Below, in pieces: positions 4,433 to 42,073 of a stretch of 64,000 nt of DNA (the first letter of the stretch is position 1; the number at the start of each line of letters is the position of its first letter). The DNA comes from Lichina pygmaea (Eukaryota; Ascomycota; Lichinomycetes; Lichinales; Lichinaceae). The position numbers and the translations under genes are program-made. The DNA lies in contig OY730170.1 of NCBI GenBank assembly GCA_963422465.1, positions 4,192,379 through 4,256,378 on the forward strand. The letters run 5' to 3'. The notes under the pieces were generated by a model that did not search any database, was not told where the DNA came from, and worked only from the letters and a program-made list of their open reading frames with translations.

Positions 4433-5463
4433 TTTTTTATTTTTATTTTTATTTGATTCTTACACTGGTAGTAGCTTTACAGCCATGCAGATCTTCTAGC
4501 TAATAGTGAACTCCTTCAGAAAACCTTTGAAGGGATAAAAACTGAAGGCAGGGTGTGACTAGGGAATGTAACAAAAGGAATCTTGAAGTTTCTTGTAAGA
4601 GAAGAGAATCTAGGTATTGGATTGGGAATAGTGGAGTTTGAAAGCTAGATTAAACTGGTTCAGTCTTTTCAAAGACATAAACCAGTACAAGAACTTCTGT
4701 AGTAGCTCTGGGTTTGAAATAATAGTGGTGAAGTCTTGGGGATTAAAAGAGACTTGTTGTCTTTGTCTTGAATAAAGAGAGCATGAAGAGGTGATATGTT
4801 TTGCAGTTTCTTCTGCTTGGCCACACACACATAGTGGGGTAGGGAAGTCAGGAACTCCAGCTCTGAAAAGAAAACTTGCCAGACCAATTCTTCCAGTCCT
4901 GATTTGCAGTAGCAGACTTGCCTCAGCTTTCTGTAACTCTTTGTAGAGCTTCAGATTGTTTTTGTGTGGCTTTTGACAGAAAGTCTGCCAGCCTGGATAG
5001 CTTCTTCTTTTCTTCTCTTCCCATTGGTCTTCCCACTCTTTAGTAAAGAGCTTTTGTAGTTCTTTCTTTGAACTAGCCTGGTTAGTAGTTATTTGACTTA
5101 ACCAAGTGAATTTCCACTTAGGAGAGATAGTTGAGGATTCCTTTAAAGGTTTCTTCAAGAGAGAGGCATAGCTGGAAATAGTGGAAAAGATACTGTCAAG
5201 AAAGTATTTGAGAGGGGAGTTTTGAATAGAAGAAAGAAAACAGGCAGTGCGAAATTTAAAGTATAGGTCTAGAGGTAGAAGAAAAAGCTCACTCTCTAAT
5301 AGAAAAGAAGGAGTGGCTTTGAAGGCACCCCCAATAAGTCTTAGGCATCTGTTTTGAAATGAAACAAGAGAAGAGATATTGGAGGATTTTCTTAGAGGGT
5401 TAAACCAGATCCCCACTGCATAGCTCAGTAGAGATCTCAGTATAGCAGTGTACACCAGACGTG
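4433..5463 (-). mobile_element. LINE copy B, 5'-truncated, with 13-bp target-site duplication
   Basis: Second copy of the LINE seen at 1-490, on the minus strand. The tail (TTTTA on the + strand, 4433-4453) is at the low-coordinate end. An uninterrupted reading frame of about 280 codons runs from the truncated 5' edge to a stop at 4610. It covers the reverse-transcriptase thumb region of Tad-type elements (QNRCLRLIGGA, LPLDLYF) and the C-terminal Cys/His cluster. The same 13 bp, CACCTGACTATAT, flank it at 4420-4432 and 5464-5476. That defines the insertion exactly and identifies it as a 5'-truncated target-primed insertion. The open frame and perfect duplication suggest that it is recent. Confidence 0.88.
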
Positions 5464-27468: not shown

Positions 27469-29898
27469 AGCATGTACTTGTAGCTTTATGTTATGTAGGT
27501 CGTGTACTACTTTGTGGTCTATCGGGCGTCTTAGCCCCTTTGGAAAGTATCGGTTCGTGTCGTGATCTTGGTGGAGTCGGTGCCACGGACATGGCGGCGA
27601 GAGTAATCTGTTCCCTTTCCTCCGGGCTTGATGGAACTCCTCGGCGTAGCCGCCCTCTTTCTACCTCCTCTATATCTGGTCTTCTTTCTTCTCTCTTCTC
27701 TCCTTTCTTCTTCTCTTCTTTCTTCGTTATACCCAAGTAGTCGCCCTACTCAAGTCCGAGTAGCCATCTGTAGGACAAGTACTTCCGTATACAGTAGCGT
27801 CATCATTGAGTGTCGTGCGAGGTGTCACTGTCTTGGCCGTCCCCGCCCCCTCTGTTCGACCTTCTTGTTTCCCCTCTTGTCACTCCTCATCACAACTGTA
27901 GATTAAATATCTTGTTCCCCTCAGATCTTGCATTCCAGTGGCAAGGGCTTCATGGCTCAGTGGAAAAGAAAGTCTTCCAGCATTGGTGGTTTAGTGGTAA
28001 AATCCGTCGTTGCCATCGACGGGCCCCGGGTTCGATTCCCGGTCGATGCAGAATTTCTTTTTCTTTTGCGGTTTTTTGGGGCTTTGCTTGGCCTCGGGAG
28101 GGAGTGATGCCGACTAGAATTTCAGTTGAAATTTTTGTTCGTGAATGGCGGGCTGTGTGATTCTACGACGGAAATGAAATGCTGCGTACGACAATGAAGT
28201 CTGGCTGGCTTTATCAAGCGCACTCTGTGGTTCTTACATTGGTGGCAGGCGACTTGCTGTAGCCTCTATGTTGCGGTCGCAGACAGGGCCAGGGCTGGGC
28301 CTAGCTTACTCGGTTGCCGGGGCCCATATAGGACCCGAGTCCCATCAACAGCTTCTTCTCCCCTCTCTGAGCAGGCCGATATGTCTTGTAGCTCCGGCAC
28401 TGTAGGTGACAGAACATCACATTCAAGTTGTTGCATCTGATGAGAATGGACTTGTGTTCATGAGGAAGATGTGAAGGCCTCTGTAGCCTTTTCTACAAGC
28501 GCAATAGAATAGCTGCTCCGACGATACAAGCCGGGGATAGATTCTTGTGGATCCCACTACAACGGCAGACTAGGCAATAGAAGTCGTAAGACACCCCACC
28601 CGCGTGCGTCGGTCTTGACAGAAGATACTATCACGTGACAGACTTCCTAATTTGGCCGTCCCGATCTGGAAACTCGGAAGGGACGGGTCGCATTAAAATA
28701 TTCTACAAGGTCGTTTGGGGTGCAGACTTGAGATCCCCGATACTGATCGCGATTCTGGCTTGGAAAGGCCGGTTTCGCTCAAGTCAGATTCGGTTCAGCT
28801 CGCGGTTCGGCCAATGGGTTCGGTCGTTACGTGCGGTTTGTGGATAGGATCGGGCTAGCTCACGGTATCACGCGAGACCTACTGAACCTACGAGTAGGGT
28901 ATAGATTACCGGACACACGTCGGTAGAAAGTGGATGTCCCTGACAAGACAATGCCTGACTTCCAACTTCCATACACTGCGTTCGGCGGAGTACATGTCCA
29001 GAATCTAGATACAATAACGCTTGATAGTTGAAATTTAGTTAACTACCACCATCTCGTTTAAGAAGGTCGCAACTGGTAAGGTTATCTGATAGCTCCGACA
29101 GTAGGTCTGTAAGTGTCTATTCAGATTCTAGAGTATGAGCATCAACTCGCGTCAGAGATATGATTCTCGCAAGGGTATCAACGGGGTTGTACAGTGTAGC
29201 GAGTAGTGACGACTGACAAGCGACAACAGCCCACTTACAAGTTACAACCTACAACTTACAACCCACAACCGAAGCAACAGCCCATGTCTAACGGGGCTCT
29301 AACCTCAGAACATCAAAAGCTGACACTTTTCGAAGCCCAGGAATCGTATCTAACAGGCAGTCAGCCAACAGCTTGAAGAGGCCAAGCCGGTAGGCCGGGT
29401 AATGGGTATCCTCGAGTTAGACAGCTTGAAGGTTGAGACTCAGAAATCCGCTTGGTTCAGTGATCTGTGTGCTGCCGGTCATGATCCAGGCTCGGACTCG
29501 GAGTTATCAAGTCACAGAGGCCCTGAGAGGGTCACCACTATCGAATAGGCCAAAGTTATTGACTTGTCCTCGAACGCTTTGGACGACATTGACACAAGTC
29601 AATGAATAACGAAAACAGGGTCTTTACGCTCGAACCGCCTTGTATCAGCACATACATCATGAAGCTATTGCTCACAGGTCTAATCACTAGTTGGCCTCAT
29701 GTGACGACAAACTGTACATAACCATTAACCAGCACATCTGGCAGCGAGTCCACTGTCGTCACGTCAGCCTACTACTGGTGGGATATAGACCTTCCATGCC
29801 TTCCAAGACTACGGACTACGAAAGGTCTCCTGATCTTCGAGGCAGGTCGCGATGCATTCTTTCAAGAGATGTTCCTCGTAGTGAGGAGCTGGCCCCTA
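27469..29898. other. Intergenic, 2.4 kb, with a single tRNA gene
   Basis: Apart from tRNA-Gly at 27980-28050 I see no gene. 27650-27730 is pyrimidine-rich (probable rvb1 3' flank). Around 29226-29275 there is a short repetitive stretch of ACAAC(T/C)TACAAC type. An ATCACGTGAC E-box lies near 28630. The rest has no open frame of note. Confidence 0.5.
27980..28050 (+). tRNA. tRNA-Gly (GCC)
   Basis: A 71-nt cloverleaf without intron. The acceptor GCATTGG pairs with TCGATGC (two G-U pairs), and the discriminator base is A. The A box TGGTTTAGTGG and the B box GGTTCGATTCC are intact. The anticodon stem CGTCG/CGACG encloses the loop TTGCCAT, giving anticodon GCC. A T-rich Pol III terminator (TTTCTTTTTC) follows directly. 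Confidence 0.97.
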
Positions 29899-31493: not shown

Positions 31494-33248
31494 ATGATGT
31501 CCAGGGCGGCTATGATCGGCCGCCAGGCTTGCCTCGCTTCGAGGTCCGCTTCGACATGGGCCAACGTGCCGCAAGGGCCACCAGTAAGTCCGAGCGACGC
31601 CCCTCCTAATCCTTTCCGAGGTGAAGGTGTGCTAACCTCACATCTAGGACGTGAGTAGGACGTAGTGCTGTTGAAGTCGAGCGCGATTTGCCGAGCTGAC
31701 GCGCCATCGGTCTCCAGGCCATCTTAGGTCGGTCCTCTGGCTCCCCGACCGCTGCTCGAGTGATTGCTGATCTGGCATAGGGATCACCGAAGCGTTCAAG
31801 GCCGACTCGTTCGACAAGAAGATCAACCTGGGTAGGGCAATCCAAACCTCGGTCGGCAATAGCTGACCTTGCACCATCGCAGGCGTCGGCGCGTATCGAG
31901 ACGACCAAGGCAAGCCGTACGTGCTGCCATCGGTACGGAAAGCAGAGCGCACGCTCGTCGACCGCCAGCCGGACAAGGAGTATGCCGGCATCACCGGCGT
32001 CCCCGCCTTCACCAAGGCCGCCGCGCTTCTCGCATACGGCAACGACTCGGCGCCGCTGCGGGAGGATCGCGTCGCGTCGACGCAGACCATCTCCGGGACC
32101 GGTGCGCTTCGGATCGGCGGTGCTTTCCTGCAGCGATTCTACCCGGGTGCCAAGAAGATCTACATCCCGACGCCGAGCTGGGCGAACCACAACGCCGTCT
32201 TCAAGGATTCCGGCCTCGAGGTGGTCAAGTACCGCTACTACAACCCGGAGACGATAGGCCTCGACATCGATGGCCTGCTCGAGGACGTCAAGAAGGCTCC
32301 GTCCAACAGCGTCTTCCTCTTCCACGCGTGCGCGCACAACCCGACCGGCATCGACCCGACCGAGCAGCAGTGGCGCCAGATCAGCGATGCCGTCAAGTCC
32401 GGGGACCACTACGCCTTCTTCGACATGGCCTACCAAGGGTTCGCCAGCGGCGACACGGATCGCGACGCGTTTGCCGTGAGACACTTTATCGGCGAGGGCC
32501 ACCAGATCGCACTGGCGCAGAGTTTCGCAAAGAACATGGTCCGCTAACCCCCCCACCCCCGTCGTTGAGGCTGCCGGCTGGGACTTGGGGCCGACGTCGA
32601 GCTTAAACTTCTCGCAGGGCCTGTACGGCGAGCGAGTCGGTCTCTTCTCCATCGTCTGCGACAGCGTCGAGGAGAAGAAGCGGGTCGACTCGCAGATCAA
32701 GATCCTCGTGCGGCCGCTGTACTCGAACCCGCCCATCCACGGCGCGCGCATCGCGTCGGAGGTGCTCAACGACGCGGCCTTGCGCGGCCAGTGGCTGGCC
32801 GAGGTCAAGGGCATGGCCGATCGCATCATCAAGATGCGAGCCCTGCTCAAGAAGAACCTCGAGGATCTCGGCAGCAAGCACGACTGGGGCCACATTACGT
32901 CGCAGGTACGTTTTCTTGCGTTGTCGCAGATTTTTGGAAATCAGCATCGAACAGGAGAAGCTTGCTCACCAGTTTTTGCCGTCTGCAGATTGGTATGTTT
33001 GCCTACACCGGCATGAAGTCCGACCAGATGGAGAAGCTGGCTCGCGAGGTGAGATTCCGTTCACCTAGTCCGGGTCGACCCTGACAGCCGTCGGCCCGGG
33101 GAGTTGTCCCACAATCATGTTTTCAGAGGCTGACTTCGGGCCATAGCATTCCGTCTACGCCACCAAGGACGGCCGCATCTCCGTCGCCGGCATCACGAGC
33201 GGTAACGTGCGGCGACTGGCCGAGGCCATCCACAAAGTGACGTCGTAG
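31494..33248 (+). CDS. aat1: Mitochondrial aspartate aminotransferase
   Basis: Predicted 419 residues; exons 31494-31583, 31648-31650, 31718-31727, 31781-31831, 31883-32538, 32618-32905, 32989-33048, 33147-33248. It is a class I PLP enzyme converting aspartate and 2-oxoglutarate to oxaloacetate and glutamate in the malate-aspartate shuttle. The N-terminus ([20 protein letters not shown]) is an amphipathic, basic presequence. The PLP lysine is K268 in [14 protein letters not shown]. Substrate and cofactor sites [19 protein letters not shown] and FDMAYQGF are intact. The conserved N-terminal stretch VPQGPPDAILG is encoded by exon 1, a 3-nt exon (GAC, Asp) and a 10-nt exon, each with canonical splice signals (ATCTAG/GAC/GTGAGT and CTCCAG/.../GTCGGT). 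Skipping the 3-nt exon would only drop that Asp and keep the frame. Confidence 0.95.
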
Positions 33249-41259: not shown

Positions 41260-42073
41260 TCCTTGGCACGCAGCATCTTGATAGAACAGCGGAGTGGAAA
41301 AGCATTTACAGTGGCGTACGGGGAAACGATATTGATACCAATGATATTGTTGCATGTAATATTGTCTGGGGACTAAGGCGACTTGGGGTAGAGCAGATCA
41401 GCTTGCCTGTTTCACGCAAATGGTGCTCTTGCTCTTTGGCCTTTATAGCTCATCAAAAACCCCCAATAATAACCCCCAGTGTAGCCGCATGTAGGCAAGT
41501 CATGGTTTGTCCCTAACATCACCAGCCGACGGCCAGTCAGCAAAGGGAAGTGGAATATGACGCCCCGTGAAGGACTCAGCCGAAGACGAGGGAGAACAGA
41601 GAGACGAGGGAGATTGCAAAAAGCGCTCTCGGCCTCAGACACCCCGAGCCCCGGGTCCCCGGCGAGTGAACATCTCCAACGTTTCACTTCTGAGATCCGT
41701 CGACCTGGAAGATTGACACCACGAAAGTCCTGATTTTGGGATGAGCAAAAACAAAGAGAAGATGGCTCCTCGAGTGCGGTCGAATTGCTTCACGTCCAAC
41801 GAGCGAGTGACCTGGTCGTCCCCAAAGGAGAGAGAGGTACCACCGTCGGAACGAGAAACGGATCTGTGGTGGAAGAAAGAAAATAGATGTGCGAGCCCAG
41901 ATATTTAAAGGGCCGAGGAAGGCAAGTCCCGTGACGCGTTTCGGGTCAGGTAAGCACATCTTACGTAATGATAGACTTCGTGATAAGCACGTGATCAATC
42001 ACTCTTCATTGAAGACTCATCAGTCTCCCACTTGCACCTTGGTACACGCTCGAGACCCACCGGCTTCCTCACC
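41260..42073. other. Intergenic, 0.8 kb; snu66 promoter region
   Basis: No gene recognised. A CACGTGATCA E-box lies near 41988, about 85 bp before the snu66 start codon. Nothing else stands out. Confidence 0.5.

Follow-up and report, generated by a model that had tools for sequence, protein, structure and literature searches.

In Fusarium, the cytochrome P450 gene CYP621A contains an exon of 1 nt that is backed by 18 listed RNA reads and by 20 Fusarium orthologues (PMC12940212). As far as the available part of that report goes, this ultra-small exon lies in a conserved motif, was detected through a gap in the join, and is accompanied by two short tandem introns, the whole region measuring 139 nt in one Fusarium species. 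A 3-bp exon consisting of a single codon has been described for the Drosophila gene homothorax, where it makes up the initial 3 nt of an exon of 48 bp, is alternatively spliced, and gives isoforms whose functions have been tested (PMC7392893). The term "3-bp exon" also occurs in two papers on the ribosomal protein gene RPS24, whose microexons are alternatively spliced in human cells according to the titles and abstracts (PMC12686416, PMC11162997). In the filamentous fungus Trichoderma virens, a micro-exon of Xlr2 can be included or skipped, and this glucose-dependent switch alters a transcription factor (PMC11121469). The stwintrons of ascomycetes, as outlined in the available text, are two short introns packed in an apparent single long intron, with an inner intron that splits a signal of the outer one (PMC12403724).

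In this study, we describe a candidate exon of 3 nt, GAC, at positions 31648-31650 of a window, which is the whole stretch of 64,000 nt that was analysed (C2:4192379-4256378, in a genome of 32.47 Mb and 8 contigs). This exon resembles that of CYP621A in occurring in a fungus, in a conserved motif, between two short tandem introns, and in having been noticed through a gap in the join. However, the CYP621A exon is not a whole codon, so that its omission breaks the frame; it belongs to a cytochrome P450 and not to a core metabolic enzyme; and it has reads and orthologues behind it, whereas the GAC exon is predicted from sequence. The single-codon length is shared with homothorax and the term with RPS24, although both of these are animal genes with alternatively spliced exons. 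Like the micro-exon of Xlr2, the GAC exon could in principle be included or skipped, but it carries no sign of regulation. Like a stwintron, the region packs two short introns into what looks like one long intron, but here a codon stands between the introns and the signals are whole.

The kind of structure is known already, and its whole-codon length in a core metabolic enzyme is the addition. No report of a microexon in a fungal aspartate aminotransferase was found in open-licence PubMed Central, which misses most subscription papers. Exons so short are often missed by automated annotation (PMC12940212, in the part available), and an annotated protein may therefore be one residue short or have a disrupted N terminus. 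Our reading, to which we assign a probability of roughly 0.88, is that GAC 31648-31650 is a real and constitutively included exon that would supply the Asp of the motif PPDAILG in a mitochondrial-type aspartate aminotransferase gene. If confirmed, this whole-codon exon of core metabolism would join the 1-nt exon of CYP621A, the one read-supported ultra-small fungal exon that we found. It would also provide a simple test of intron definition, with splice reactions 3 nt apart at the only two full-consensus introns of the gene.

Structure of the gene and identity of its product

The aminotransferase gene occupies positions 31494-33248 of the plus strand and consists of 8 exons and 7 introns; the joined exons form one open frame of 419 codons with the stop at its end. 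Exon 1 (31494-31583) encodes an Arg-rich N terminus and ends in GGG CCA CCA. It is followed by intron 1 (31584-31647; 64 nt), which has the donor GTAAGT, the branch site GCTAAC and the acceptor TAG within a terminal ATCTAG, and then by the GAC exon (Asp). Intron 2 (31651-31717; 67 nt) has the donor GTGAGT, the branch site GCTGAC and the acceptor CAG within a terminal CTCCAG. Exon 3 (31718-31727), which reads GCCATCTTAG, has only 10 nt and encodes A, I, L and the first base of the G codon, and intron 3 (31728-31780; 53 nt) has the donor GTCGGT, with 2 mismatches, the branch site GCTGAT and the acceptor TAG. The joined translation continues through exon 4 (31781-31831), exon 5 (31883-32538), exon 6 (32618-32905), exon 7 (32989-33048) and exon 8 (33147-33248, including the stop codon), all on the plus strand. 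An earlier note on this DNA had given the same coordinates and letters for the micro-exon, introns of 64 and 67 nt, and a 10-nt exon after them, and a check on the sequence returned identical values. If microexons are considered to be exons of about 30 nt or less, the GAC exon falls within this class with its 3 nt, and it has canonical signals on both sides, AG before and GT after.

The introns of this gene are short, of the GT-AG type, and have branch sites of the CTRAY type; the five introns other than 1 and 2 range from 51 to 98 nt. These features, like a match in the window to an Aspergillus fumigatus sRNA family, are compatible with an ascomycete fungus. Intron 5 (32539-32617) begins with GTCCGC, which is poor as a donor, and its branch site is weak, and splicing at this place is still demanded by the homologous protein. 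On the minus strand opposite the gene, there is an antisense open frame of 429 aa (31606-32895), which is most likely a by-product of the high GC content of the coding strand.

Among solved structures, 91 distinct sequences matched the 419-aa product at E <=0.001, and the best match, to a mitochondrial aspartate aminotransferase, covers residues 20-418 (E 7.2e-170). The product scores 457.9 bits with NCBIfam NF006719 (cut-off 377) and 304.8 bits with PF00155 (cut-off 19.7). The PF00155 match begins at residue 47, and the 3-nt exon lies N-terminal to this Pfam domain, close to the protein start. On the strength of full-length homology that exceeds the curated cut-offs, the product is predicted to be a mitochondrial-type aspartate aminotransferase, which agrees with the name that the gene had been given beforehand. 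The Arg-rich N terminus resembles a mitochondrial presequence, and import into the organelle would be a prediction from this resemblance.

Conservation of the Asp residue

In the best 5 of the 91 matches, which were aligned, the PPD of the query stands opposite PPD without a gap. The alignment with 1yaa, which we take to be the yeast enzyme, has PPDALFG at the matching place. When the N-terminal 60 aa were used as the query, the query and chain spans were equal in all 60 PDB rows listed of the 79 matched, so that there is no net gap in the N-terminal stretch of these 60. A contig scan returned 10 loci, all of them bacterial and none from a fungal relative, and the Asp is present in every one of them, in the form of PADP, PPDA, PPDS or PPDP; the length of the stretch is also kept in these loci, as judged by eye. 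The viral contigs scanned with the aminotransferase gave no locus.

The genome has a second aspartate aminotransferase, encoded on the minus strand near C2:1171763-1171975, in which PEDPLFGL lies in one open frame that reads VPQAPEDPLFGLMAAF. Compared with this second enzyme as the query, PDB rows of bacterial length have a net gap of one residue at some point in the N-terminal stretch (8-56 vs 4-51 in one example). Among the cytoplasmic chains, presumably those of pig, Val stands in the place of the Asp in the 5 of 24 matches for which alignments were shown. The match to 1ajr spans 4-58 vs 4-58, and the place of the Asp is therefore filled in this cytoplasmic chain and not deleted. Across the wider family, the Asp is not universal, which speaks against our reading. 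When the Asp was removed from the product, the NF006719 score fell from 457.9 to 450.3 bits (-7.6), and the start of the aligned profile moved from 3 to 12.

Alternative splice structures

We enumerated the splice structures that are possible between exon 1 and the AIL segment, an interval that offers 27 GT/GC donors and 13 AG acceptors. We allowed a single intron as well as pairs of introns flanking an exon of <=60 nt, with introns of at least 35 nt and with intron 3 fixed, and structures were retained if they kept AILGITEAF and had no stop ahead of it. This left 75 structures, of which 70 contain two introns and 5 a single one. PPDAILG resulted from 2 of the 75, both through a 3-nt GAC exon, either the one at 31648-31650 or an echo of it at 31659-31661 on the plus strand. 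An Asp precedes AILG in 8 of the 70 two-intron structures; in the 6 others of those 8, one or the other of these GAC exons is combined with a different first donor (GCCAAC, GTGCCG or GCCCCT), by which the preceding stretch is shortened or lengthened. One of the one-intron options gives an alternative reading but requires the donor GCCCCT. Apart from the echo, the enumeration gave no other canonical route to the Asp.

The echo GAC lies 11 nt downstream of the first and arises from a near-tandem repeat, TAGGACGTGAG / TAGGACGTAGT, at 31645-31666. The GAC at 31648-31650 is consequently not the only GAC with splice signals in this interval, as had been supposed, because a second TAG-GAC-GT is present, albeit with a poor donor. 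A structure in which the echo is the real exon, or in which both are used, would give the same mRNA and the same protein; it is the only other structure of the 75 to produce PPDAILG, and its acceptor TAG and its branch site GCTAAC, 23 nt ahead of the intron end, match the consensus. However, the echo donor GTAGTG has 3 mismatches to GTRWGY, compared with 0 for GTGAGT, and an exon running from the first acceptor to the second donor would have 14 nt and shift the frame. We regard splicing through the echo as very improbable.

The interval 31584-31717, from GTAAGT to CTCCAG, is also a legal GT-AG intron of 134 nt that keeps the frame, and it might be a single intron or a stwintron (nested twin intron) in a gene whose enzyme has no Asp at this place. 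In the Fusarium core genes, introns have a median of 57 nt and a range of 42-529 nt, and first introns have a mean of about 93 nt, according to the part of the source available (PMC5677156). The lengths of 64 and 67 nt fit both the other introns of the gene and these values, and a single first intron of 134 nt would be unusual for this gene but inside the Fusarium range. However, such an intron would forfeit the conserved Asp, and the presence inside it of a branch site, an acceptor and a donor at precisely the right codon would have to be a coincidence of the kind met once in 50,000 shuffles (see below). The stwintron was rejected because the donor, branch site and acceptor of the 134-nt unit are contiguous and unsplit by an inner intron. 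We consider it very improbable that the 134 nt contain no exon.

Splice signals and chance expectation

When compared with the Aspergillus nidulans consensus GURWGY / RYURAY / YAG (figure legend, PMC12403724), which is that of another fungus, introns 1 and 2 alone among the 7 introns show zero mismatch in donor, branch site and acceptor. The other 5 introns have 1 to 2 donor mismatches each relative to this consensus, and two of them have a branch-site mismatch. An ab initio splice-site matrix derived from 264 kb, with the aminotransferase gene masked, was discarded: its first pass gave 5 candidates and its second pass drifted to poor donors that resembled those of false introns. This discarded matrix gave the intron 1 acceptor a low score of 2.4, under the 5% quantile (2.6), and ordinary scores to the remaining sites of both introns 1 and 2. 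A predicted RNA fold of 31578-31727 was unremarkable (z 0.88), with 166 of 200 shuffles at least as stable.

The rarity of the arrangement was assessed by dinucleotide shuffles of the 134-nt region, with the outer splice sites fixed, a consensus donor, and introns of at least 42 nt. An Asp micro-exon together with a branch site in the first intron occurred in 1 of 50,000 shuffles, although this test and those that follow were designed with the exon already known and hence measure rarity, not a rate of blind discovery. The count rose to 11 of 50,000 when the branch site was not demanded, and a micro-exon of any codon with a branch site was found in 18 of 50,000. An earlier run under slightly different criteria had given 0 of 20,000 for Asp with a branch site, 3 of 20,000 for Asp without this demand, and 2 of 20,000 for any codon with a branch site and a GTRAGT donor. 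Among 14,004 pieces of 134 nt sampled from part of the genome sequence, the combination of Asp exon and branch site was absent, and 5 pieces had an Asp exon when no branch site was demanded. The pattern CTRAC-N5-20-YAG-GAY-GTRAGT has a single match in 32.47 Mb, at GAC 31648-31650, and its reversed control has none. In 264 kb, which is too little to gauge the frequency of micro-exons, full-consensus intron-exon-intron units numbered 1 for an exon of 3 nt, again GAC 31648-31650, and 0 for exons of 1, 2, 4, 5, 6, 9 or 12 nt; the reversed controls were all 0. Independent support comes from the protein, which demands an Asp codon at exactly the place of GAC 31648-31650. Protein conservation, the enumeration, the consensus signals of both flanking introns and the rarity by chance together lend good support to the 3-nt micro-exon proposed in the earlier note.

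An origin of the two introns from an introner-like element was also considered and rejected, as introns 1 and 2 each matched only themselves in a search of the genome at E <=1 in which very common words were skipped. Pairwise comparison of the seven introns gave a slight likeness between introns 1 and 2, which 3 of 200 shuffles equalled, and another between introns 2 and 4 (4 of 200), but these are 2 of 21 pairs, and the likeness is not significant once the pairs are counted.

Inclusion of the exon and a possible mechanism

The GAC exon might also be an alternative cassette, in which case transcripts with and without GAC would coexist, perhaps under regulation, and two enzymes one Asp apart would be made. 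The exon length is a multiple of 3, and the expectation that skipping removes one residue and keeps the frame is correct; moreover, a microexon switch has been described for Xlr2 of Trichoderma virens (PMC11121469, available part). Skipping would create a first intron of 134 nt, which lies inside the Fusarium core-gene range of 42-529 nt, and because first introns in Fusarium run long (up to 529 nt), an intron of this size is not forbidden (PMC5677156, available part). However, it would exceed the 51-98 nt of the other five introns of the gene, both flanking introns have full-consensus signals, and the region has no special RNA fold. The length of the protein stretch is also kept in the 5 alignments shown, in the 60 PDB rows listed of 79, and, by eye, in the 10 bacterial loci. 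The suggestion of two proteins differing by one Asp is disfavored by this constant length and by the 134-nt intron that skipping needs, and we judge the cassette to be very unlikely. A more speculative idea, to which we give very little credence, is that a single-codon exon serves as a metabolic tuning point: conditional partial skipping would give an enzyme that lacks one conserved Asp of the N-terminal arm, and the echo would stand in for a missed first GAC so that the Asp is retained.

If the GAC exon is constitutively included, as we favor, this most likely happens by intron definition with sequential splicing. Under intron definition, splice sites are paired across the intron, independently of exon length (review PMC8624252, available part). 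The objection that such an exon is hard for exon definition is therefore a weak one in an organism with short introns. Introns 1 and 2 would each be recognized separately. U1 at the second donor would be only 3 nt from U2AF/U2 at the first acceptor; they probably could not bind jointly, and this crowding of the early complexes suggests that the two introns are removed sequentially. Once either intron is removed, the remaining splice site would adjoin an ordinary exon. The absence of an exonic enhancer is probably compensated by the full consensus in the signals of both introns, 1 and 2, and the restriction of such strong signals to these two introns would fit the need of sequential splicing.

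Other features of the window

Three further features were recorded in the window. A tRNA gene lies at 27980-28050 on the plus strand (Rfam, 53.8 bits). Rfam family RF01512 (Afu_309, an Aspergillus fumigatus sRNA family) matches 41487-41882 on the minus strand with 96.7 bits, and because this match has 396 bases compared with the 322 positions of the model, about 74 bases are extra. At 4610-5455 on the minus strand, an open frame of 281 aa has a putative resemblance to the C terminus of a reverse transcriptase protein of the LINE type.
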